Part shown: in pieces, positions 15,981 to 27,733 of the stretch
Layout of the letters: every line of letters starts with the position of its first letter
Numbering within the stretch: the first letter of the stretch is position 1
Assembly (NCBI RefSeq): GCF_006974145.1
Contig: NZ_CP039456.1
Coordinates: 434,001-498,000, forward strand
Direction: 5' to 3'
From: Changchengzhania lutea
GTDB lineage: Bacteria > Bacteroidota > Bacteroidia > Flavobacteriales > Flavobacteriaceae
Length of the DNA stretch: 64,000 nt
Notes under the pieces: generated by a model
Told to the model about the DNA's origin: nothing
The model's input: only the letters and a program-made list of their open reading frames with translations
Database searches by the model: none
Translations under genes and position numbers: made by a program

Positions 15981-16517
15981 ATGTTCAAGCACATAAAAGA
16001 ATCGCAAATTACCATTTCGGAACTCATGTTGCCCTCACACTCTAATTTTAGTGGTAAAATACATGGCGGCTATATTTTAAATTTGATGGATCAAATTGCG
16101 TTCGCTTGTGCCTCCAAACACTCCAGACATTATTGCGTCACAGCGTCTGTTAATAAAGTAGACTTTTTAAACTCTATTGATGTTGGCGAATTGGTCACGC
16201 TCAAGGCCTCTATTAATTATACGGGAAGAACTTCGATGGTGGTTGGCGTGCGAGTGGAATCTGAAAACATAAGAACTGGAGAAAAGAAACATTGTAATTC
16301 GTCATACTTTACCATGGTAGCTAAAGATGAAGATGGTAAAAACGTGCCTGTTCCTGGTTTAATTTTAAATTCCGAAGAATCGGTAAGGCGTTTTTCCAGA
16401 AGCATAAAAAGACAAGAACAAATGAAAAACAGATCGAATAATTTTAAGGCTTCTGAATTTAAAATGAATGAGCATTTAAAATTACTTACAACTCAAAATG
16501 TAAACGTTGAACTTTAG
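15981..16517 (+). CDS. Acyl-CoA thioesterase (hotdog fold)
   Basis: The ATG at 15981 is chosen over the earlier in-frame ATG at 15921, because that extension would overlap the preceding gene and lacks family similarity. The 178-aa product has the hotdog pattern of YciA/BACH-like thioesterases: LMLPSHSNFSGKIHGGYILN with the catalytic Asp in LNLMDQIAFACASKHS, then VTASVNKVDFLNSIDVGELV. It hydrolyses acyl-CoAs in the cytoplasm; chain preference cannot be read. Confidence 0.88.
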   Translation: MFKHIKESQITISELMLPSHSNFSGKIHGGYILNLMDQIAFACASKHSRHYCVTASVNKVDFLNSIDVGELVTLKASINYTGRTSMVVGVRVESENIRTGEKKHCNSSYFTMVAKDEDGKNVPVPGLILNSEESVRRFSRSIKRQEQMKNRSNNFKASEFKMNEHLKLLTTQNVNVEL

Positions 16518-16525
16518 GCTAAAAC

Positions 16526-19042
16526 TTAAAAATATACCCTAAAAACAGCATTGGGTGTTATTCCTAAAGAATTTTGAACGGTCTCAACAACTTCGTCGTT
16601 ATTAACACGATAAAAATTATTAATCTGGTTTTCCTTGTCTAAAACGTTCCAGATTGAAACACCTAAATTGGCCTTAGCATTACTTCCTAACTTAAAATTA
16701 TAAATTGCCGAAACATCTAAACGCACATAATCCTCTAAATTTGAAGCATTTGTTGCTCCAAAATTTACCTCATTATTTATAATGTCATTACCCAAAACTG
16801 GTCGCGTTGTTGGCTTACCAGAATGCCAATTTAAGCCTGCCGAAAATTTTAAATTATTAAGCTTATAGGCTGTACCTAGTGTAAATGTTTGGGTTATATC
16901 ATAATTACTTGGAAAATAATTGGCTTCTAAATCGTTAAAATAGTAACGGTTATACATATAAGAATAGCTTAGCCACGTATTAAACGTATTAAGTTGTTTT
17001 CTTAATAAAAAATCTACGCCTTTAACATCATACTTGCCTTTACTTTTAACAAATTCATATTGATTTTGAAACCCTTGACTTTGGGTGGTAATACCATTTA
17101 CAACTTTATAAAAACCATCAATATCAATCAACCAGCCCTTATTGCTATAGTTTATTCCTGTAGAAATTTGTTTACTTGTAATAACAGGGATATCTTGATT
17201 ATTTGATAATTGCCATCTGCGCTTTTCTATTCCTAAAAAATCATTCTGAAAATTTATGACTTGCGATGTATTTTGATGCTTATATTCACCTAAAACCTCT
17301 AGTGAAAAATACTTGAGAAATTGATGGCTGAAATTGAGTCTTGGCTCCCAAATTGATTGTTTAAATTTGCCAATATAATTATACCTAAGCCCTAGATTTA
17401 AATTGGTTTTTTTGTTAAACGATTTATAATCAAATTGATAAAATACGCCATGGGTTCTAAGAACTTCAGAAACCAAATTTCTGAATCGGGGTACATCAAC
17501 ATCATCTAAATTGGTTATCTCTGTCTCTACAAAATGATAACCACCTAAAAACTTGAAGTAATCATTTAATTTATAATTTGTTTTAAGTTTTATGCTCGTT
17601 TCAGACACTATATTTTCTTGTAAGAAACGTTGCGAATCCAATACGTTAACATTTACCGCTTTTAATTTATAATCGGTTTCATAAACTTCAAGCTCTGTTT
17701 TAAATTTACTGCTCCATGTCCTAATATAATGCAAGGCTCCCGCGATACTTTTTTGTATTAATTGGCTTTCACGAGACTCTAGCTCATCGTTTATTGTGGC
17801 GTTTTCATTAAACTGAAGTTGGTTATGCACGTTAATAAAATTAAGTCGAACTTCATCAGCATCACTAATCTTATAAACCCATCTCAAGGAGGTGTCATAA
17901 AAATCGAAAGTTTCATCGGTATTTGTTATGGTTGTGGCGTTGGTAGTTACTTCAGTATTTTGTGAAATTCTATCAAAAAACGCAGTATATGTTGGTGTTT
18001 CAACAAAATCGCTAATAGATTTTCTTGCGGCAATCTGTATGGATGAAGCATCATTAATTGGAATATCTACAAACCCACTAAGGTTGGTTAAATTAACTTC
18101 TGCAACGCCTTCAAATTCATTATTTATATATCTCTCGGTTTGCATAGCAATAGTTCCTGAAACACCATCGGTATAACTCACATCACTTCCGTTTTTTCTT
18201 AAAAAAACAGTTTGGGTTATATGTGGATTATACATGGAAATAAGGCCGAAAAAATGACCAGATTGATACATTTTTATGCCATCCCAAAGAATCAGATTTT
18301 GGTCATGTGTCCCTCCGCGAATATTAATATTGGAAACCGTTTCATTTATACTTTGTATGCCCGGAAAAGCCTGAACAGACTGTAAAACATCTTCATCTAT
18401 TAATCCCGGGAGGATATCAAAATCAGAAAAGTTTATTTCATAGGATCCGTCACTTAACTTATCAATTCCGCTGGTGATATAATTTGAAATGATAACCTCT
18501 GATAAGGATTGAAAATTTGGTCTTAAAAAAATAGCTTCACAATCTAACCCTGTAAATTCATTTAATGTTATTGTTATGGTTTTATAACCCAAAAAACGAA
18601 TGGTAATGGGCTGTGCCATATTTTCAATTTTAATTTGAAAAAAACCCTTTTCATCCGTTATGGTAGAATGGCTTAATGTTTGAATAGTTGCTGCAACAAG
18701 GGGCTGGAAGTTCGTTTTATCTTTAATATAGCCACAAAACACGAACACTTTTTTAGGTGTAACTAAAACGATGCTTTTGCTCATTATTGAAAATGATAAG
18801 CCTGTTTTTGTTTCTAGATAAGTTAGAGCTTCTGTAAAGGATATACGTTTGGAAGGTGGTATTAAAAAAATGTTTTCTATAGTATCTTCGGCATAATTAA
18901 ATGGCATGTTATAGCGCTCTTGCAGTAAGTTTATAACATGTGCTAATGATTCTTGTTTATTAGTATTTTGCGCATAACTACTAAAAAAAACAAAAAGTAA
19001 TAAACTAAAGAAAATTATTTTTTTTTTAATTCTACTCGCCAT
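16526..19042 (-). CDS. TonB-dependent receptor with STN domain (FecA-type)
   Basis: An 838-aa outer-membrane receptor. Order of domains: signal peptide (1-24), STN-like domain (about 30-100, HVINLLQERYNMPFNYAED), carboxypeptidase-regulatory-like beta domain (about 112-185), plug (about 190-300, with INIRGGTHDQNLILWDGIKM) and barrel. The STN domain and the FecR and FecI genes upstream mark it as a transducing receptor that signals its own substrate. No SusD-like partner follows, which argues against a polysaccharide locus. It overlaps the end of fecR by 11 bases. Substrate unknown. Confidence 0.92.
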   Translation of the reverse strand: MASRIKKKIIFFSLLLFVFFSSYAQNTNKQESLAHVINLLQERYNMPFNYAEDTIENIFLIPPSKRISFTEALTYLETKTGLSFSIMSKSIVLVTPKKVFVFCGYIKDKTNFQPLVAATIQTLSHSTITDEKGFFQIKIENMAQPITIRFLGYKTITITLNEFTGLDCEAIFLRPNFQSLSEVIISNYITSGIDKLSDGSYEINFSDFDILPGLIDEDVLQSVQAFPGIQSINETVSNINIRGGTHDQNLILWDGIKMYQSGHFFGLISMYNPHITQTVFLRKNGSDVSYTDGVSGTIAMQTERYINNEFEGVAEVNLTNLSGFVDIPINDASSIQIAARKSISDFVETPTYTAFFDRISQNTEVTTNATTITNTDETFDFYDTSLRWVYKISDADEVRLNFINVHNQLQFNENATINDELESRESQLIQKSIAGALHYIRTWSSKFKTELEVYETDYKLKAVNVNVLDSQRFLQENIVSETSIKLKTNYKLNDYFKFLGGYHFVETEITNLDDVDVPRFRNLVSEVLRTHGVFYQFDYKSFNKKTNLNLGLRYNYIGKFKQSIWEPRLNFSHQFLKYFSLEVLGEYKHQNTSQVINFQNDFLGIEKRRWQLSNNQDIPVITSKQISTGINYSNKGWLIDIDGFYKVVNGITTQSQGFQNQYEFVKSKGKYDVKGVDFLLRKQLNTFNTWLSYSYMYNRYYFNDLEANYFPSNYDITQTFTLGTAYKLNNLKFSAGLNWHSGKPTTRPVLGNDIINNEVNFGATNASNLEDYVRLDVSAIYNFKLGSNAKANLGVSIWNVLDKENQINNFYRVNNDEVVETVQNSLGITPNAVFRVYF

Positions 19043-19937
19043 GAATAATTACCAGATTTGAAGTACTCATTACGTAAGTCATATTCATGGGTTGCGTAAT
19101 CCCAATAAGGGCTTCTTCAAGATTATCATGAGGAAAACCTCCTGTGAACAATCTATTTACATCTATGTTTTTAAAAGTAACTTCAATGTTATATTGCCGT
19201 TCTAATTCAGATAAAACCTCTTTAATAGGAATAGCATTAAACTCGCTCATATTATTCGTCCATTTTGGTGAGGCGACCAAAGTTTTTCCGTTTGAAAACT
19301 TACCATCCAATATTAGATAGATATCACCAGCTAATAATTGTCTGACTATGGTATCTGAAACAACTTTTACTATGCCTTCAAAGCATTTCACTTCAAAATA
19401 ATCCTTGCGCTGTTTTACATTAAATTGAGTCCCAACAACCGTTACAATGCCACTACTGGTCTTTACATCAAAAGTTTTTCCTTTCGCTACTTTAAAGTAG
19501 GCCTCTCCGTTTAATGTCAAAATCCTGTTTTTATCCCAGTTTCTAGTATTATATTCAATTGAAGATAGTACATTTAACTCAACTTCTGACCGGTCTGGAA
19601 GTTCCACACGCGTTTTTTGGCTAGCTAAAGTTTCCACAATTGTGGTGGTGTTGAAAAAAAAGGTAAAGTATACCCCCAATGCAACAACAATAATACTTGC
19701 TATCTTCAAAAAAGGGTTTATCCAATTTATTTTTTTCACTGCTTTTTCAGAAGACTTGTATTGCGCTTTTAATGTATTAAAATCATCCATTTTGTGAGCA
19801 TGAGATGCTTTAAAATACTTTGCACTATCAATTATATATCGATTTAGAAAGGCGTCATCTAGCTTCTCGAATGCTTGTTTTTCAGCATCTGTAAGTGTTT
19901 CTTTCAGCCATTTTTTTATTAAGTACTCTTTATCCAT
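19032..19937 (-). CDS. FecR family anti-sigma / sigma regulator
   Basis: A 301-aa protein with a cytoplasmic N-terminus, one membrane helix (about 82-103) and a periplasmic FecR domain (TRVELPDRSEVELNVLSSIE, LTLNGEAYFKVAKGKTFDV, VGTQFNVKQRKDYFEV). The C-terminal ~70 residues form an STN/DUF4974-like domain (VLSELERQYNIEVTFKNID). It relays the receptor signal to the sigma factor encoded just upstream. One arm of the 26-bp inverted repeat occupies most of its 47-base leader. Confidence 0.93.
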   Translation of the reverse strand: MDKEYLIKKWLKETLTDAEKQAFEKLDDAFLNRYIIDSAKYFKASHAHKMDDFNTLKAQYKSSEKAVKKINWINPFLKIASIIVVALGVYFTFFFNTTTIVETLASQKTRVELPDRSEVELNVLSSIEYNTRNWDKNRILTLNGEAYFKVAKGKTFDVKTSSGIVTVVGTQFNVKQRKDYFEVKCFEGIVKVVSDTIVRQLLAGDIYLILDGKFSNGKTLVASPKWTNNMSEFNAIPIKEVLSELERQYNIEVTFKNIDVNRLFTGGFPHDNLEEALIGITQPMNMTYVMSTSNLVIIHGE

Positions 19938-19958
19938 CTATCCTTAACTTTAATATAT

Positions 19959-19984
19959 AACAACTTCATCCTTGAATCTCCTGA
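19959..19984 (-). repeat. 26-bp inverted repeat, left arm
   Basis: This copy lies between the sigma stop codon (19985) and the fecR start (19937). Read on the minus strand, it begins TCAGGAGATTCAAGG and ends GATGAAGTTGTT. It is the exact reverse complement of the segment at 20562-20587. Confidence 0.95.
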
Positions 19985-20509
19985 CTATTTTATTTTGAAT
20001 CCTTGTAATTCTTTCTTTAGAATATTAAACGCACTATAAATTCTATATTCAACGACCTTTTGGGTAACTCCTAAAAGTTCTGCAATTTCACTGTGTTTTT
20101 TTCCTTCTACTTTATTTAATAAAAAGGCTACCCGTTGTTCCTCGCTTAAATTTCCTAAAATATTTTGATACTGTTGTAAAAATTGTTCTTTTTCTAAAAT
20201 AAACTCTGGAGACTCGTTCGTATGATTTTTTGGCTTTTCCAAATGATATTTTAACACTACTTTTTGATGCTTAATATCGTTTAACATCATGTTATTGGCT
20301 ACAGTATATAAAAACGATTTAGCTTTATTTAATGTGACCTTTTTACAATTATCCCACAGTTTTATAAAGGCATCTTGGGCTTTATCGGCAGGGTTATATT
20401 GTTCACCATATTTGTAATACAAGAAGTTTTGCAAGTCTTGTGCATAGGTATTGTAAATACGTTCGAAAACAGCGTCTTCGCAAATATTGTCGTTAAGTTC
20501 TTTTGGCAA
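19985..20509 (-). CDS. FecI-type ECF sigma factor
   Basis: A 174-aa sigma-70 family protein with region 2 (FERIYNTYAQDLQNFLYYKYGEQYNPADKAQDAFIKLWDNCKK in one stretch of the N-terminal half) and region 4 (LSEEQRVAFLLNKVEGKKHSEIAELLGVTQKVVEYRIYSAFNILK). With FecR and the STN receptor it forms a complete surface-signalling cassette. The gene and its upstream region lie exactly between the two arms of a perfect 26-bp inverted repeat. Confidence 0.92.
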   Translation of the reverse strand: MPKELNDNICEDAVFERIYNTYAQDLQNFLYYKYGEQYNPADKAQDAFIKLWDNCKKVTLNKAKSFLYTVANNMMLNDIKHQKVVLKYHLEKPKNHTNESPEFILEKEQFLQQYQNILGNLSEEQRVAFLLNKVEGKKHSEIAELLGVTQKVVEYRIYSAFNILKKELQGFKIK

Positions 20510-20561
20510 GGTGTTTTTGGTTTTAAAATCTAAAGTTAGACAAAAAAATTATTAAAAAGTT

Positions 20562-20587
20562 TCAGGAGATTCAAGGATGAAGTTGTT
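20562..20587 (+). repeat. 26-bp inverted repeat, right arm
   Basis: Read on the plus strand it begins TCAGGAGATTCAAGG and ends GATGAAGTTGTT, an exact copy, inverted, of 19959-19984. It lies upstream of the acidic lipoprotein gene at 20625, so each arm is in the same orientation relative to the gene it precedes. Confidence 0.95.
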
Positions 20588-20624
20588 TCATTACTAAAAG
20601 CCCTAAACAGAAAGCCTAACAATC

Positions 20625-21698
20625 ATGAAAATACTGTTAAAAAGAATCTTGTTTTTTTATTTGGCAACATTGCTTGTATTTATTTCTTGCAGAACTGAAG
20701 AATCCGAAATTATAGAAACACCACCCGAGGATATTTTAACATCAAACGCTTTGGTAGCAAGTTTAATGCAAAAAACATCAATTAATGATGGATCAAATGA
20801 TAACATTATTGATTATGCTAATTGTTTCAATGTTAAATTACCCATTACTGTAACAGTAAACGGAGAAGAAATTCCTATAAACTCTGAAGAAGACTTCAAA
20901 ATAATAGAATACATTTTTGATGATTCTGATGATGATGTAGATGTTCTTACTATTACGTTCCCAATACAAATAATTCTTAACGATTTTAGTGAAGTCATTA
21001 TAAATAACTATACCGAATTAGCTAGCTATTCCATTAACTGCAATGGCGAAAATGAAGCTGATGACGATATTGAATGTTTAAATTTCAAGTACCCCATAAC
21101 TGCCTTTCTATATAACGCCAATGATGAAATTATTGACTCTATACAAATAAACTCTGATAGTAATCTATATAATTTTATTAAGGATTTGGATACGTTTGAC
21201 CTGGTATCTATAAACTTCCCTATAACCGTAGCCCTTTTAGATGGTACTGAATTTATTATTAATAATTTAACTGAATTAGAAAACACCATTAAAGCTTATG
21301 AAGATTATTGCGATGAAGATGACGACTATGATTATAATGATGATGATTGTAATAATTGCAACACCAATGAACTGATTGATTTTTTAACCAATTGCCCCGG
21401 TTGGACTGTAGATAAATTAGAACGCTATGGTAATGATTATGATGATGCCTATGATGGCTACACATTCAATTTTTTAAATGATGGAACAATCTCCGTTTCT
21501 TGGTCAAGCACTACCGTAAATGGCACTTGGACGGCTGCGGGTACAGGAAATAATATTACAGTAACTATAAATATCCCAAGTTTACCATATTGTAATAATG
21601 ATTGGGTATTACATGAAATATCTGACTATTCTAAAACCAAAATCGATTTAAGAGTTGGTGATGATGATAGGTTAAGGTATTATAACAATTGCAATTAA
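20625..21698 (+). CDS. Acidic repeat lipoprotein, unknown
   Basis: A 357-aa lipoprotein (lipobox FISC, Cys at residue 22). The mature part holds three related beta modules, each with a pattern like KLPITVTVNGEEIPINSEED or INFPITVALLDGTEFIINN followed by an acidic run, and a Cys near each module. A very acidic linker (DDDYDYNDDDC) leads to a C-terminal lipocalin-like domain (WTVDKLERYG, YTFNFLNDGTISVSW, NGTWTAAGTGNNI). Metal or calcium binding by the acidic segment is possible but unproven. It is transcribed away from the sigma/receptor cassette and may be part of its regulon. Confidence 0.75.
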   Translation: MKILLKRILFFYLATLLVFISCRTEESEIIETPPEDILTSNALVASLMQKTSINDGSNDNIIDYANCFNVKLPITVTVNGEEIPINSEEDFKIIEYIFDDSDDDVDVLTITFPIQIILNDFSEVIINNYTELASYSINCNGENEADDDIECLNFKYPITAFLYNANDEIIDSIQINSDSNLYNFIKDLDTFDLVSINFPITVALLDGTEFIINNLTELENTIKAYEDYCDEDDDYDYNDDDCNNCNTNELIDFLTNCPGWTVDKLERYGNDYDDAYDGYTFNFLNDGTISVSWSSTTVNGTWTAAGTGNNITVTINIPSLPYCNNDWVLHEISDYSKTKIDLRVGDDDRLRYYNNCN

Positions 21699-21744
21699 TA
21701 AAATAAGCTAGTAGAAATACTTTAATGAAAAAGAAAAATTTCAA

Positions 21745-21770
21745 TTATCAAATGGTTAAGCATTTGATAA
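21745..21770. terminator. Hairpin after the acidic lipoprotein gene
   Basis: Arms TTATCAAATG and CATTTGATAA enclose a six-base loop. It is AT-rich and has no T-run, so it may be a processing or stability hairpin in front of the stronger one at 21779. Confidence 0.5.
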
Positions 21771-21778
21771 CTAGCTCA

Positions 21779-21807
21779 AACTGCTTCAGTTAATAACTGA
21801 AGCAGTT
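21779..21807. terminator. Terminator hairpin before the redox operon
   Basis: Arms AACTGCTTCAGTT and AACTGAAGCAGTT form a 13-bp stem with loop AAT, followed by ATTTAAATT. It separates the acidic lipoprotein gene from the operon that begins at 21825, only 17 bases downstream. Confidence 0.75.
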
Positions 21808-21824
21808 ATTTAAATTAAAAAGCT

Positions 21825-22205
21825 ATGAAAAAAAAATGGTTTATATTAATAATACTAATCCTTCTAGCTATTGTAAGCTACAATTATATTTATAAAAACC
21901 ATCGTGACATAGCTAATGAAACATCTCATTTTAAACTAACAGCAGCAGATATATCAAGCGAATTTGCAATAAACCCAACAAATTCTGAAATCAAATACCT
22001 CAACAAAACCATAGAAGTAACAGGTACAATAACAAACCTAAACCCCAACAATCTTACCTTAAATAATAAGGTGTTTTGCCAATTTTCAAATCGCATTCAA
22101 AAAACACTATCAAACAATTCCCAAATCAAAGTTAAAGGACGTTTTATAGGCTATGACGATTTATTAGAAGAAATCAAATTAGACCAATGTACTATTATAC
22201 AATAA
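21825..22205 (+). CDS. OB-fold (tRNA_anti-like) exported protein
   Basis: A 126-aa protein with an N-terminal membrane/signal helix (residues 4-24). The remainder resembles the tRNA_anti-like OB-fold family: DISSEFAINPTNSEIKYLNK, IEVTGTITNLN and IKVKGRFIGYDDLLEEIKLD. In Bacteroidota such proteins are periplasmic and of unknown role; the name reflects fold, not tRNA binding. It is first in a run of five closely spaced plus-strand genes. Confidence 0.75.
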   Translation: MKKKWFILIILILLAIVSYNYIYKNHRDIANETSHFKLTAADISSEFAINPTNSEIKYLNKTIEVTGTITNLNPNNLTLNNKVFCQFSNRIQKTLSNNSQIKVKGRFIGYDDLLEEIKLDQCTIIQ

Positions 22206-22220
22206 TTTAAAATAATTACT

Positions 22221-22796
22221 ATGAAAACAAAATTACTAACACTATTTTTTTTAGGAATAATAAGTGTAAACGCACAAATAACGCATAATCTAGATTGGAG
22301 AATTGGTATCGGAACAAGTATAGATTTAACCATTGATACTGGGGATACTGTTATTTGGACCTGGACCGATAGCGCACCTCATACCGTAACCAATAAATCT
22401 GGTAGCGCAGAAGTTTTTGATAGTGGAACAATTACAGGAAATGAAATGACTTATTCCAAAACGTTTACAGTTGTAGGAACAAACCCATACCAATGTGACA
22501 TTCACCCTGGAAGTATGGCAGGTACAATAACAGTAGAAAATGCTCTAGGAATTGATGATTTTTTATTAAACAGCTTTTCTATTTCACCTAATCCTGCACG
22601 TTCTTATATTAAGTTAGATTCACCTTCACAATTAATTATCGATAATGTAAAGGTATTTGATGTTTTGGGAAAAGAAATTTATTCAAAAAATAAATTAGAA
22701 GAGCAAATAAATATATCAAATTTTAGCAAAGGCATATATATACTAAAAGTTTCATCCCTAGGAAAAATAAAAACAATCCGTTTGATAAAAATCTAA
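22221..22796 (+). CDS. Cupredoxin (plastocyanin-like) protein with T9SS sorting tail
   Basis: A 191-aa exported protein (signal to about residue 18, VNAQ). Residues 20-106 form a plastocyanin-like domain: GDTVIWTWTDSAPHTVTNKS and NPYQCDIHPGSMAGTITV. Candidate type 1 copper ligands are H54, C92, H95 and M99. A C-terminal type A sorting domain follows (SISPNPARSYIKL, VFDVLGKEI, SKGIYILKVSS, KTIRLIKI), so the protein should cross the outer membrane by type IX secretion and be attached to the surface or released. It sits 15 bases after the OB-fold gene. Confidence 0.88.
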   Translation: MKTKLLTLFFLGIISVNAQITHNLDWRIGIGTSIDLTIDTGDTVIWTWTDSAPHTVTNKSGSAEVFDSGTITGNEMTYSKTFTVVGTNPYQCDIHPGSMAGTITVENALGIDDFLLNSFSISPNPARSYIKLDSPSQLIIDNVKVFDVLGKEIYSKNKLEEQINISNFSKGIYILKVSSLGKIKTIRLIKI

Positions 22797-22831
22797 TTTA
22801 TAAATATCATTTTACTATTAAAACCAATCCA

Positions 22832-23680
22832 ATGAAATATACTTTAATAGCACTTTTTCTTATCCCAATAATAACCTTTTCCCAAAACGATTTATTAGAC
22901 GAAATTGATTCAGATTCGACGGGTTCAGATTATGCAACGGCCGCCTTTAAAGGGCTAAAGATTGTTAATTTTGAATCCACAAAACTAGTCGCAAAAAAAG
23001 ACTTCACCTTTATTGTATCGCATAGATTCGGTAGCCTTAAAAATGGTATAGATACCTTCTTCGGTCTTGATGAAGCCGTAACGCGCTTAAATTTTGTTTT
23101 TGGAATTACTGATGGATTAAATATTGGTGTTTCAAGAAGTTCTTTTTTAAAGATTTATGATGTTTCCTTTAAATATAGACTCCTTAGACAGAAAGAAGGC
23201 GGATTCCCATTTACAGTTGTAGGATATAATTCTATTCTAATAAATACTGCTTTAGATAAGGACAATTTACCTTTACTTGAGTTTAAACATCGCTTAGGAT
23301 ATACCGCGCAATTATTGATATCCAAAAAAATAGATTCTAATTTATCAGTGGAAATAGCACCTACTTTCTTCCATGATAATTATGTAGTGGTTAACGAACA
23401 AGATAATTCGCAATTTGCAGTAGGCCTTGGAGGGCGCTATAAACTTACCAAACGCTGGTCCTTAAATGCAGATTACGGTTGGCACTTAAACAGAGTGAGT
23501 AATTCCCCGTTCAAAAACCCGTTATCTGTGGGAGTAGATTTGGAAACTGGAGGGCATGTATTCCAGATGCATTTTACCAATGCCCAAGCTATGAACACCA
23601 ATGGTTTTTTAGGCCAAGGAACTGGCGATTGGGGAGATGGTGATATCTATTTTGGATTTAATTTAAGCAGACAATTTTAA
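22832..23680 (+). CDS. DUF5777 family beta-barrel protein
   Basis: A 282-aa exported protein (signal to TFSQ at about 18). The rest is made of alternating short strands ending in an aromatic-rich outer-membrane signature (GDIYFGFNLSRQF). The pattern AAFKGLKIVNFESTKLVAKKDFTFIVSHRFG matches DUF5777, a Bacteroidota family that often lies beside cytochrome and YceI genes. Likely an outer-membrane barrel; transported species unknown. Confidence 0.8.
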   Translation: MKYTLIALFLIPIITFSQNDLLDEIDSDSTGSDYATAAFKGLKIVNFESTKLVAKKDFTFIVSHRFGSLKNGIDTFFGLDEAVTRLNFVFGITDGLNIGVSRSSFLKIYDVSFKYRLLRQKEGGFPFTVVGYNSILINTALDKDNLPLLEFKHRLGYTAQLLISKKIDSNLSVEIAPTFFHDNYVVVNEQDNSQFAVGLGGRYKLTKRWSLNADYGWHLNRVSNSPFKNPLSVGVDLETGGHVFQMHFTNAQAMNTNGFLGQGTGDWGDGDIYFGFNLSRQF

Positions 23681-23699
23681 TAATTTTAACATTAATACT

Positions 23700-24065
23700 A
23701 TGAAAAAGACACTTTACACAGGAATTTTATTATCAGCACTACTTTTTAGCTGTAGCAGTTCTAGTAACGACGATTTAACTGATGCACCAGACCCAAATCC
23801 AAATCCTGGAGCTAAAATCACTTACAATGCAAATATTAAATCTATTATGTCTGGTAATTGTACCTCTTGTCATGGGAGTACACCAACAAATGGGGCGCCT
23901 ATGTCCTTAACAACCTATTCGCAAGTAACAAATGCTGTGCAAAACAGGGGCTTGATTGCAAGGATAAATAGCGTTTCCAATCCTATGCCACAAAACGGAT
24001 TAATGCCTCAGAACACAAGAGATACCGTTCAACAATGGGTTGATGATGGCCTTTTGGAAAATTAA
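23700..24065 (+). CDS. Cytochrome c-like lipoprotein
   Basis: A 121-aa lipoprotein (LLFSC, Cys at 18) with a Pro/Asp-rich tether. The single haem motif CTSCH lies at residues 54-58 after ITYNANIKSIMSGN, and NPMPQNGLMPQN offers a Met axial ligand. The pattern is that of small lipid-anchored monohaem domains. With the cupredoxin encoded two genes before it, it suggests electron transfer at the outer membrane. Confidence 0.85.
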   Translation: MKKTLYTGILLSALLFSCSSSSNDDLTDAPDPNPNPGAKITYNANIKSIMSGNCTSCHGSTPTNGAPMSLTTYSQVTNAVQNRGLIARINSVSNPMPQNGLMPQNTRDTVQQWVDDGLLEN

Positions 24066-24074
24066 TTTGATGAG

Positions 24075-24596
24075 ATGAGAAAGCTACTATTTTTATTTGC
24101 CCTAATACATTTAAATTGCTTTGCGCAAAATAAATACTTAACAAGAACCGGAACCGTTGGTTTTGAGGCATCTGTTGCATCATTTGAAGAAGTTAAAGCA
24201 ACCAATAGTTCGGCTACGGCAATTATTAATTCTGAAAATAATGAATTTGCAGCTTTAGTTTTGGTAAAAGGCTTCCGATTTAAAAATGCGCTTATGGAAG
24301 AGCATTTTAATGAAAATTATGCCGAATCTGATAAATATCCCAAAGCGACTTTTAAAGGAAAAATAATTGGTGAATCAAACAATTATCAAATAGATGGAAC
24401 CTTGTCATTTCATGGAAAATCCAAACAAATACATGCGATCCCTATAAGGTGTTTAGTCAAAAATGAAATAATTAAAATTTCTGGAGACTTTGATGTTAAT
24501 GTTTCCGATTTTGATATCAAAATCCCTAAGATAGTTCAGGACAAAGTTTCTGAAAGTGTTCATGTTTCATTTGCTTTTGACCTCAAAAAGAAATGA
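24075..24596 (+). CDS. YceI family protein
   Basis: A 173-aa exported protein (signal to CFAQ, about 17). YceI lipocalin-like motifs are visible: GTVGFEASVASFEEVKATNS, HFNENYAESDKYPKATFKGK and a C-terminal DFDVNVSDFDIKIPKI. Family members bind isoprenoid or other hydrophobic molecules, such as quinones. It starts ten bases after the cytochrome gene, as the last gene of the operon. Confidence 0.9.
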   Translation: MRKLLFLFALIHLNCFAQNKYLTRTGTVGFEASVASFEEVKATNSSATAIINSENNEFAALVLVKGFRFKNALMEEHFNENYAESDKYPKATFKGKIIGESNNYQIDGTLSFHGKSKQIHAIPIRCLVKNEIIKISGDFDVNVSDFDIKIPKIVQDKVSESVHVSFAFDLKKK

Positions 24597-24880
24597 AGAG
24601 GCTGTCTGAAAGCGTTTTTTAATGTCATTCAGAACAATCGCTAAGCATCTTAATTAGTTAATTAATAATCTGAGTTCAATTGATATTCAAAATTCAAAAA
24701 CTTGAATTTCAACAACAAATAATTCTTTTTCATATCCTGCAAGGTCTTATTTTGACCTTGTAGGTATTAGAATTAAAAAATAAACCTGCAAGCTTTTGAA
24801 AACCTTGCAGGTTATTAATGTCTTATCTTTTCTTAGATGCTTCATTTTCATTCAGAATGACACTTTTTAGACAGCCTTTT
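24597..24880. repeat. Composite palindromic intergenic region
   Basis: The 284 bases between the convergent yceI and carB genes are built from nested inverted pieces. Outer pair: AGGCTGTCT at 24599-24607 with AGACAGCCT at 24869-24877. Next: a GTCATTC block near 24623 with GAATGAC near 24855, and AAGCATCT at 24643-24650 with AGATGCTT at 24835-24842. The centre holds two hairpins: CCTGCAAGGTC/GACCTTGTAGG (about 24737-24763) and AACCTGCAAG/CTTGCAGGTT (about 24783-24813). It probably ends both transcripts and looks like a degenerate mobile palindrome. Confidence 0.7.
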
Positions 24881-27733
24881 TTATTTACTTAAATACATTT
24901 TCCGTCTGGAATACAAATCGTAAAAGGCATCATCCTTTAAACTATCAATAAACAAAATACTTTCCCCAGTACTTTTCATTTCTGGCCCCAATTTTTTGTT
25001 CACATTAGGAAACTTATTAAATGAAAAAACAGGTTGTTTGATAGCATAACCGTCTAATTTTGGTTTAAAGTCAAAGTCGGTTACTTTATTTACACCAAGC
25101 ATGACCTTAGTAGCGTAATTTACATAAGGCTCTCCGTAGGCTTTCGCAATAAATGGCACTGTTCTAGAAGCTCTAGGATTGGCCTCAATAATGTAAACCA
25201 TATCGTCTTTAATAGCGAATTGAATATTTATTAAGCCAACGGTATTTAATGCTAAGGCAATCTTATGAGTATGATCGATAATTTGTTGCATTACCAAATC
25301 TCCAAGGTTAAATGGCGGTAATAAAGAGTTACTATCGCCTGAATGAATGCCACAAGGTTCAATATGCTCCATGATACCAATAATATAAACATTCTCTCCG
25401 TCGCAAATGGCATCAGCCTCTGCTTCAATAGCCCCTTCTAGGTAATGATCCAGTAGTAATTGATTTCCTGGCATCGCACCTAACAATCCAACCACATGTT
25501 CTTCCAGCTCCTTTTTATTAATAACAATTTTCATACCCTGACCTCCAAGAACGTAAGACGGCCTCACTAAAATAGGAAAATCCAAAACATCCGCAATTGC
25601 TGCAGCTTCATCCGCCGTAGTTGCAATATCAAACTCGGGATACGGAATATTATTTTCTTTCAGTAAATTAGAGAACAGCCCTCTGTCTTCAGCTAAATCT
25701 AAGGATTCAAAACTGGTTCCAATTATTTTAACACCATACTTCGTTAATTTTTCAGCAAGTTTTAAAGCGGTTTGACCACCAAGTTGCACAATAACGCCTT
25801 CTGGTTTTTCATGCTTTATGATGTCATATATATGTTCCCAAAATACGGGTTCGAAATACAATTTATCAGCCGTGTCAAAATCTGTAGACACAGTTTCTGG
25901 GTTGCAGTTAATCATGATGGTTTCATAACCACATTCCGCAGCAGCCAAAACGCCGTGAACACAACAATAATCAAACTCAATGCCTTGACCAATTCTATTT
26001 GGTCCAGATCCTAAAACAATAATCTTCTTCTTATCGGTTACTATACTTTCATTTTGAGCAAAACGGTTTCCATCTGCCGTTTCCATATCACTTTCAAATG
26101 TTGAATAGTAGTATGGTGTTTTCGCTTCAAACTCTGCCGCACAGGTATCAACAAGTTTGTAAACCCTATTGACACCCATTTCTTCGCGCTTGTTGTAAAC
26201 CTCACTTTCTAGGCATCCTAACATATGTGCAATTTGTCGATCACCATAGCCCTTTTGTTTAGCCTCTAGCAACAAATCTTTCTGAATGGTATTGATATTA
26301 AATGTAGAAATTTCAATTCTCAACTTATGTAATTCCTCATATTGCTTTAAGAACCACATATCAATCTTAGTGATTTCATGAATTCTACTTAGCGGAATTC
26401 CCATTAGGATAGCATCATAAATTATGAATACACGGTCCCAGGAGGCATTCGTTAACTTTTCAATAATTTGCTCGTAGTTTTTATTTTCTTTGCCATCTGC
26501 ACCGAGCCCGTTTCTTTTAATTTCCAAAGATTGGGTCGCTTTATGAAGTGCTTCCTGAAATGAACGGCCAATGCCCATAACCTCACCAACAGACTTCATT
26601 TGTAGACCTAAAGTTCTATCGGAGCCTTCAAATTTATCAAAATTCCAACGTGGTATTTTTACGATGACATAATCTAAAGTCGGTTCAAATAAAGCCGATG
26701 TTGATTTTGTGATTTGATTTTTAAGTTCATCTAAATGATAGCCTAAGGCTAATTTCGCGGCAATTTTCGCAATAGGATAACCGGTCGCTTTACTCGCTAA
26801 TGCTGAAGAACGTGATACTCGGGGATTAATTTCAATGGCAATAATATCTTCATTTTCATCAGGACTAACGGCAAACTGCACGTTGCACCCTCCTGCAAAA
26901 TCACCAATACTACGCATCATGTGAATGGCCATATCGCGCATTCTTTGATACGTTCGATCACTCAATGTCATGGCCGGTGCCACAGTAATCGAATCACCGG
27001 TGTGAATCCCCATAGGATCCATATTTTCAATTGAGCAGATAATAACAACATTATCATTCGAGTCCCGTAGCAATTCCAGCTCATACTCCTTCCAACCTAT
27101 TAAAGCTTTATCAATCATTACCTCATGGATTGGAGAAATCTCTAAACCACGTCTCAAAAGCTCATCAAAATCTTCTTCTTTATACACAATCGCTGCACCA
27201 TCTCCTCCTAAAGTAAATGACGCTCTAATAACCAAAGGAAATCCAAACTCTTGGGCTATTTCCTTGCCTTTTAAATAAGAGGTTGCCGTAGCTTGAGGCG
27301 CCATAGGAATCCCTATTTTAAGCATTAATTCGCGAAACTGCTCTCTATCCTCGGTTATATTAATCGCATCAATATCAACCCCAATAATTTCGACACCAAA
27401 ATCTTTCCAAATTCCTTTTTCGTCCGCCTCAATGCATAAATTAAGTGCCGTTTGTCCACCCATGGTTGGTAAGACTGCATCAATTTGTGGATGTTCTTTT
27501 AAAATTTGAATTAACGATTTGGTCGTGAGCGGCAACAAATAAATATGATCGGCCATGGAAGGATCGGTCATAATCGTTGCTGGATTAGAATTAATCAAAA
27601 CAGTTTCTATGCCATCTTCGCGTAGCGATCTTAAGGCTTGAGACCCTGAATAATCAAATTCGCATGCTTGCCCGATAATAATAGGGCCAGAACCAATAAT
27701 TAAAATAGATTTAAGTTGTGAATTTTTTGGCAT
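24881..27733 (-). CDS. carB: Carbamoyl-phosphate synthase, large subunit (short form)
   Basis: A 950-aa protein made of two ATP-grasp halves, each with a pre-ATP-grasp domain: LIIGSGPIIIGQACEFDYSG near the start and VLGSGPNRIGQGIEFDYCCV near residue 575. It makes carbamoyl phosphate from ammonia (delivered by CarA), bicarbonate and two ATP, for pyrimidines and arginine. The usual bacterial enzyme has ~1070 residues; this one stops after the second FNKFPNVNKKLGPEMKSTGE motif, so the C-terminal MGS-like allosteric domain is absent. carA is not in the window. Confidence 0.96.
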   Translation of the reverse strand: MPKNSQLKSILIIGSGPIIIGQACEFDYSGSQALRSLREDGIETVLINSNPATIMTDPSMADHIYLLPLTTKSLIQILKEHPQIDAVLPTMGGQTALNLCIEADEKGIWKDFGVEIIGVDIDAINITEDREQFRELMLKIGIPMAPQATATSYLKGKEIAQEFGFPLVIRASFTLGGDGAAIVYKEEDFDELLRRGLEISPIHEVMIDKALIGWKEYELELLRDSNDNVVIICSIENMDPMGIHTGDSITVAPAMTLSDRTYQRMRDMAIHMMRSIGDFAGGCNVQFAVSPDENEDIIAIEINPRVSRSSALASKATGYPIAKIAAKLALGYHLDELKNQITKSTSALFEPTLDYVIVKIPRWNFDKFEGSDRTLGLQMKSVGEVMGIGRSFQEALHKATQSLEIKRNGLGADGKENKNYEQIIEKLTNASWDRVFIIYDAILMGIPLSRIHEITKIDMWFLKQYEELHKLRIEISTFNINTIQKDLLLEAKQKGYGDRQIAHMLGCLESEVYNKREEMGVNRVYKLVDTCAAEFEAKTPYYYSTFESDMETADGNRFAQNESIVTDKKKIIVLGSGPNRIGQGIEFDYCCVHGVLAAAECGYETIMINCNPETVSTDFDTADKLYFEPVFWEHIYDIIKHEKPEGVIVQLGGQTALKLAEKLTKYGVKIIGTSFESLDLAEDRGLFSNLLKENNIPYPEFDIATTADEAAAIADVLDFPILVRPSYVLGGQGMKIVINKKELEEHVVGLLGAMPGNQLLLDHYLEGAIEAEADAICDGENVYIIGIMEHIEPCGIHSGDSNSLLPPFNLGDLVMQQIIDHTHKIALALNTVGLINIQFAIKDDMVYIIEANPRASRTVPFIAKAYGEPYVNYATKVMLGVNKVTDFDFKPKLDGYAIKQPVFSFNKFPNVNKKLGPEMKSTGESILFIDSLKDDAFYDLYSRRKMYLSK

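Follow-up and report, generated by a model that had tools for sequence, protein, structure and literature searches.

Within the window, by which we mean the whole 64,000-nucleotide stretch of Changchengzhania lutea DNA that was analysed (contig NZ_CP039456.1, positions 434,001 to 498,000), the genes for an ECF sigma factor, a FecR-domain protein and a TonB-dependent receptor lie next to one another on the minus strand, and all three have Pfam matches above cut-off. A gene for an acidic lipoprotein diverges from the sigma gene on the plus strand and is followed by several further genes. The genes and predicted elements of the locus, in window coordinates, are the following.

16526-19042, minus strand: TonB-dependent receptor with a FecR_C/STN-like N-terminal stretch (CarbopepD_reg_2 and Plug above cut-offs)
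19032-19937, minus strand: FecR-type anti-sigma factor (FecR and FecR_C above Pfam cut-offs)
19956-19984, minus strand: left arm of an inverted repeat plus 3 nt, predicted ECF promoter for fecR and the TonB receptor (conserved motif, N13 spacing)
19979-19984, minus strand: -35 part of the left arm, TCAGGA
19956-19964, minus strand: -10 part of the left arm, GTTGTTATA
19985-20509, minus strand: FecI-type ECF sigma factor gene with a TTG start (Sigma70_r2 and Sigma70_r4_2 above Pfam cut-offs)
20531-20538, minus strand: predicted housekeeping -7 box TAACTTTA (TAnnTTTR) for the sigma gene
20562-20587, plus strand: right arm of the repeat, predicted ECF promoter for the divergent lipoprotein operon (conserved outward motif in relatives)
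20562-20567, plus strand: -35 part of the right arm, TCAGGA
20582-20587, plus strand: -10 part of the right arm, GTTGTT
20625-21698, plus strand: divergent acidic lipoprotein, a partner kept in related loci
21825-24596, plus strand: genes after the lipoprotein (Pfam: tRNA_anti-like, cupredoxin with a T9SS tail, DUF5777 barrel, cytochrome c-like, YceI)

The N-terminus of the receptor gave matches to FecR_C (E 3.5e-4) and STN (E 0.03) that both fall below the curated cut-offs, and the Pfam match of the cytochrome c-like gene likewise lies below its own. The order of the genes at 21825-24596 is kept in most close loci, and these genes are possibly on the same transcript as the lipoprotein. The genes for the cupredoxin, the DUF5777 protein, the cytochrome c-like protein and YceI accompany the lipoprotein in close relatives, whereas in distant ones they were mostly not found there, a distribution that may point to a redox or metal function. 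Homologs of the lipoprotein itself consist of about 21% D+E and carry the N-terminal Cys in 78 of 79 cases, and a Pfam search assigned it to no family. Because the structural matches of its model (mean pLDDT 77, pTM 0.48) are weak, being lipocalin-like with none at E 0.001 or better, no function is claimed for this protein. An Rfam search of positions 16000-25000 did not find an RNA element.

The sigma gene is framed by a perfect 26-bp inverted repeat. The initial annotation had described the arms, at 19959-19984 and 20562-20587, as exact reverse complements enclosing the whole sigma gene and some 52 bases upstream of it, with the left arm abutting the stop codon, and the coordinates bear this description out: the left arm begins immediately after the sigma stop codon and reads toward fecR, and upstream of sigma 52 nt separate its start codon from the right arm, which is directed at the lipoprotein. 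Among inverted repeats with arms no more than 1 kb apart this is the longest perfect one in the window, its 26 bp comparing with longest repeats of 12-19 bp in 30 simulated control windows (first-order Markov, composition as in the window); ungapped extension carries the arms to 33 nt at 91%. The annotation had also raised the prospect of further copies of the 26-mer across the genome, which would make it a dispersed repeat. We reject this identity, since only the two arm sites came up in the 4.13-Mb genome when as many as three mismatches were allowed, and the 26-mer is absent from the 59 other genomes searched. A reading of GGATGAAG within the arms as an upstream ORF was dropped as well, the ATG not being kept in the spacers of relatives.

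For comparison, 80 related Flavobacteriaceae loci were gathered from public genomes via an alignment of the sigma factor, whose orthologs share 66-83% identity. The lipoprotein lies divergent upstream of sigma in 79 of the 80, the one locus without it (L108) ending at a contig edge, and fecR lies downstream of sigma in the same direction, again in 79. In the single locus without fecR, from a Winogradskyella MAG, the usual place of that gene is occupied by an element at the sigma 3' end (L055:5556-10522), in which a tyrosine-integrase-like gene comes first. Almost all 80 loci carry, in the same two places, two outward copies of the motif TCAGGA-N13-RGTTGTTnTA. Across the 79 comparable loci AGGA and TTGTT are nearly invariant at both sites and the 13-nt spacer is variable; the right arm of C. 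lutea departs from the terminal nTA, with TCATT after GTTGTT. The left-arm element ends 18 nt before the fecR ATG, and the distance from the motif to the first ATG of fecR is mostly 17-20 nt across relatives. At a spacing of 13 the motif has 119 matches in 0.81 Mb of related loci, 104 of them flanking sigma and 15 elsewhere, and at spacings of 9-12 and 14-17, or reversed, it has none in the same sequence. Ten of the 15 matches elsewhere precede lipoprotein genes, two of these being the divergent lipoprotein itself. A pattern with 14 spacer bases, run on the genome, was set aside: it missed the known sites, and its 14 matches were about as many as in the control.

We consider it highly probable, from the conservation of these sequences and from their place before just those genes that a FecI-type sigma factor would be expected to control, that the inverted repeat is the enclosed sigma factor's target promoter, present twice and in divergent orientation. 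Of the two readings proposed in the initial annotation, the duplicated cis-element that would link the lipoprotein to the sigma regulon is supported by the conserved -35 and -10 motifs at both sites. The other, a DNA inversion switch in which a recombinase acting on the arms inverts the enclosed 603-bp segment and so reverses the sigma gene, could appeal to the perfect 26-bp arms that enclose exactly the sigma gene and to the many tyrosine integrases elsewhere in the genome, but it finds no support in the related loci and we judge it very improbable. The orientation of sigma with respect to fecR and the lipoprotein is constant wherever these were found, with no turned-round sigma seen among the 80 loci; the arms of most relatives are only partly complementary, the promoter core alone being kept; and after a flip both promoters would still point outward, so that little would be switched. 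The accompanying remark, that no recombinase is evident in the window, is borne out for tyrosine integrases, inasmuch as none of the 24 matches to PF00589 in the genome falls in the window and the nearest is about 172 kb away. Invertible promoters of the Bacteroidales (for example PMC8748976, PMC4747536) similarly have short inverted repeats around a segment beside surface-protein genes; there the segment inverts, whereas here the repeats are conserved promoter motifs and the orientation is constant. A pair of divergent target promoters would account for an inverted repeat that resembles a phase-variation site without being one. It is scarcely credible that the sigma gene is the cargo of a small mobile element of which the arms form the terminal repeats; inverted arms do stand at both ends of one gene, but the genome holds a single such pair, the segment sits at the same place in 80 related genomes, and what the relatives' arms share is the promoter core only.

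Two paralogous sigma-fecR-receptor systems are present in the same genome, each with a divergent and apparently related acidic lipoprotein. These systems, L168 (contig 2804500-2810500) and L169 (1826500-1832500), each have an outward promoter-like pair of their own. Their outward elements differ in the -35, which is GGTAGGA (GGTAGG..) or GTAGGGT; one system has a similar -10 (CTGTTATA), and the other has GTCTTA at this place; paralogous systems of the relatives also show an outward pair, mostly with a similar -10. Across relatives, in a small sample that was listed and not scored, three types of sigma recognition helix (EYRIYSAF, EKRIYGAL and EKRMxxAL) go with three types of -35. These patterns bear on a further possibility, namely that the arms are operators through which another DNA-binding regulator acts on the two flanking operons. 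Operators conserved before each operon would have much the same appearance, but the layout is -35/-10-like with rigid spacing, the -35 half changes in step with the sigma recognition helix from paralog to paralog, and inspection of the conserved cassette revealed no gene for another regulator, all of which leaves the operator explanation improbable. If the arms are sigma-dependent promoters, as we prefer, they provide a concrete promoter sequence for an uncharacterised family of cell-surface signalling systems that occurs across the Flavobacteriaceae with several members per genome, and, since the -35 changes by sigma paralog, they make the regulons predictable.

The sigma gene itself is preceded by a TAnnTTTR box in 71 of the 80 loci, as against about 15 in shuffled sequences, and in C. 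lutea this box (TAACTTTA) falls in the stretch that separates the sigma start from the right arm. The flavobacterial primary sigma factor has TAnnTTTG as its -7 consensus (PMC9723704). The recurrence of the box upstream of sigma in relatives suggests that the sigma factor is probably made by housekeeping transcription from its own promoter inside the segment. Because both predicted sigma-dependent promoters point away from the sigma gene, the gene would stand outside its own regulon, with its anti-sigma factor and receptor inside. In the circuit that we propose, the sigma gene would be transcribed from this housekeeping-type promoter and the TonB receptor/FecR pair would release the sigma factor, by analogy with the FecI-FecR-FecA and Has systems. 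RNA polymerase with the released sigma factor would then start at both arms and transcribe outward. Minus-strand transcription from the left arm would cover fecR and the receptor gene; plus-strand transcription from the right arm would cover the acidic lipoprotein gene and perhaps extend to the redox-protein genes beyond.

Such a circuit is a well-conserved case of a known kind, with a modestly unusual evolutionary twist. The FecI-FecR-FecA system of E. coli (PMC9249621) likewise combines an ECF sigma factor, a FecR-type regulator and a TonB-dependent receptor, and its sigma gene is transcribed by the housekeeping sigma factor, as is predicted here. In E. coli, fecI and fecR share a transcript and are not autoregulated, with FecI acting at the fecA promoter, whereas fecR in C. 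lutea stands behind a predicted sigma promoter. In the haem uptake system of Serratia marcescens, HasI drives hasS and hasR, not hasI (PMC9249621); the circuit proposed here would resemble this system in having a FecI-type sigma gene that is not autoregulated and a sigma factor that acts on the genes for its anti-sigma factor and receptor, and in Serratia, too, a common -35 sequence was found before both targets. Unlike the HasI/HasS/HasR arrangement, the locus described here has its anti-sigma and receptor genes in line behind one predicted promoter and a second, identical one facing a lipoprotein operon, and the -35 and -10 sequences differ. Within the same phylum, a -10 of TGTT is reported for probable ECF promoters in Bacteroides thetaiotaomicron (PMC12596196). 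The non-canonical -30/-10 promoters linked to the ECF factors SigW-1 and SigH-1 of this species (PMC12596196, PMC7366714) share the TGTT-type -10 with the arms; they belong to other sigma groups with other targets, and the parts of these two papers that we drew upon describe neither a TCAGGA -35 nor a flanking pair.

Promoter function explains the blocks shared between the arms, but not the identical spacer. We think it moderately probable, on comparative grounds, that the perfect identity of the arms results from recent copying of one arm onto the other, by template switch or gene conversion, which would be the last step in the history of the circuit and would explain a match that extends even to the variable 13-nt spacer. 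Mean spacer identity within a locus is 5.70 as against 5.08 (sd 0.15) in shuffled pairings, and eight of 79 loci reach an identity of at least 11/13 where shuffles give 0.84, figures to be read with the proviso that the shuffles ignore phylogeny and that close species pairs are not independent. The case for copying is accordingly of moderate strength. Under the column frequencies of the upstream arm, the probability of the C. lutea spacer arising there is about 4e-8 (P). The arms are perfect in L013, L051 and L074 as well, with a sequence particular to each locus, and a comparison of two Xanthomarina loci shows differences at the same two spacer positions in the one arm as in the other. A yeast study has described how template switching between inverted repeats homogenises their arms, with spacers of at most 70 bp (PMC8604942), a far shorter distance than the approximately 600 bp that separates the arms here.

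With promoter function granted, the identity of the arms might instead have arisen by selection for equal strength or by chance, an explanation that we hold to be less likely though by no means far-fetched: the promoter function of the core is well supported, and near-identical spacers are found in only 8 of the 79 loci. It sits poorly with the identity of low-information spacer positions in C. lutea (G000), L013, L051 and L074, where the sequence is different each time, and with the Xanthomarina pair, whose differences recur at matching positions of the two arms. Copying, if it occurred, would make this locus a natural example of how two promoters with 600 bp between them can become identical. 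Rather unlikely, in our estimation, is the stronger proposition that the arms evolve in concert, such that repeated copying would keep both outputs of the sigma factor matched in strength and might occasionally flip the sigma segment as a side effect.

The motif also occurs beyond the arms. The genome contains a third exact match, which lies between genes at contig position 3642276, with the ATG of a CHRD lipoprotein gene 94 nt after its start, whereas the ten one-mismatch matches in the genome all (10/10) lie inside genes. The regulon in this genome probably includes this distant CHRD lipoprotein, and its predictable members would be fecR and the receptor, the lipoprotein operon and the CHRD lipoprotein. 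The CHRD-domain lipoprotein gene lies at L174:77-614, and an RND-type-looking efflux operon adjoins it on the other strand. A literature search returned no usable information on CHRD lipoproteins or on ECF239/ECF240. In eight related loci (L052, L068, L069, L072, L088, L096, L100 and L110) a lipoprotein of 235-237 aa (FTDFRISIRDVVFKNDDD...) follows another copy of the motif, 2-4 kb from sigma; the 237-aa lipoprotein of these other loci was not found in the C. lutea genome. In genome G005, motif copies at L172:988-1016 and L173:1288-1316 stand before a His-rich 124-aa protein and a VCBS/FG-GAP-like repeat protein, both of them possible further members of the regulon.
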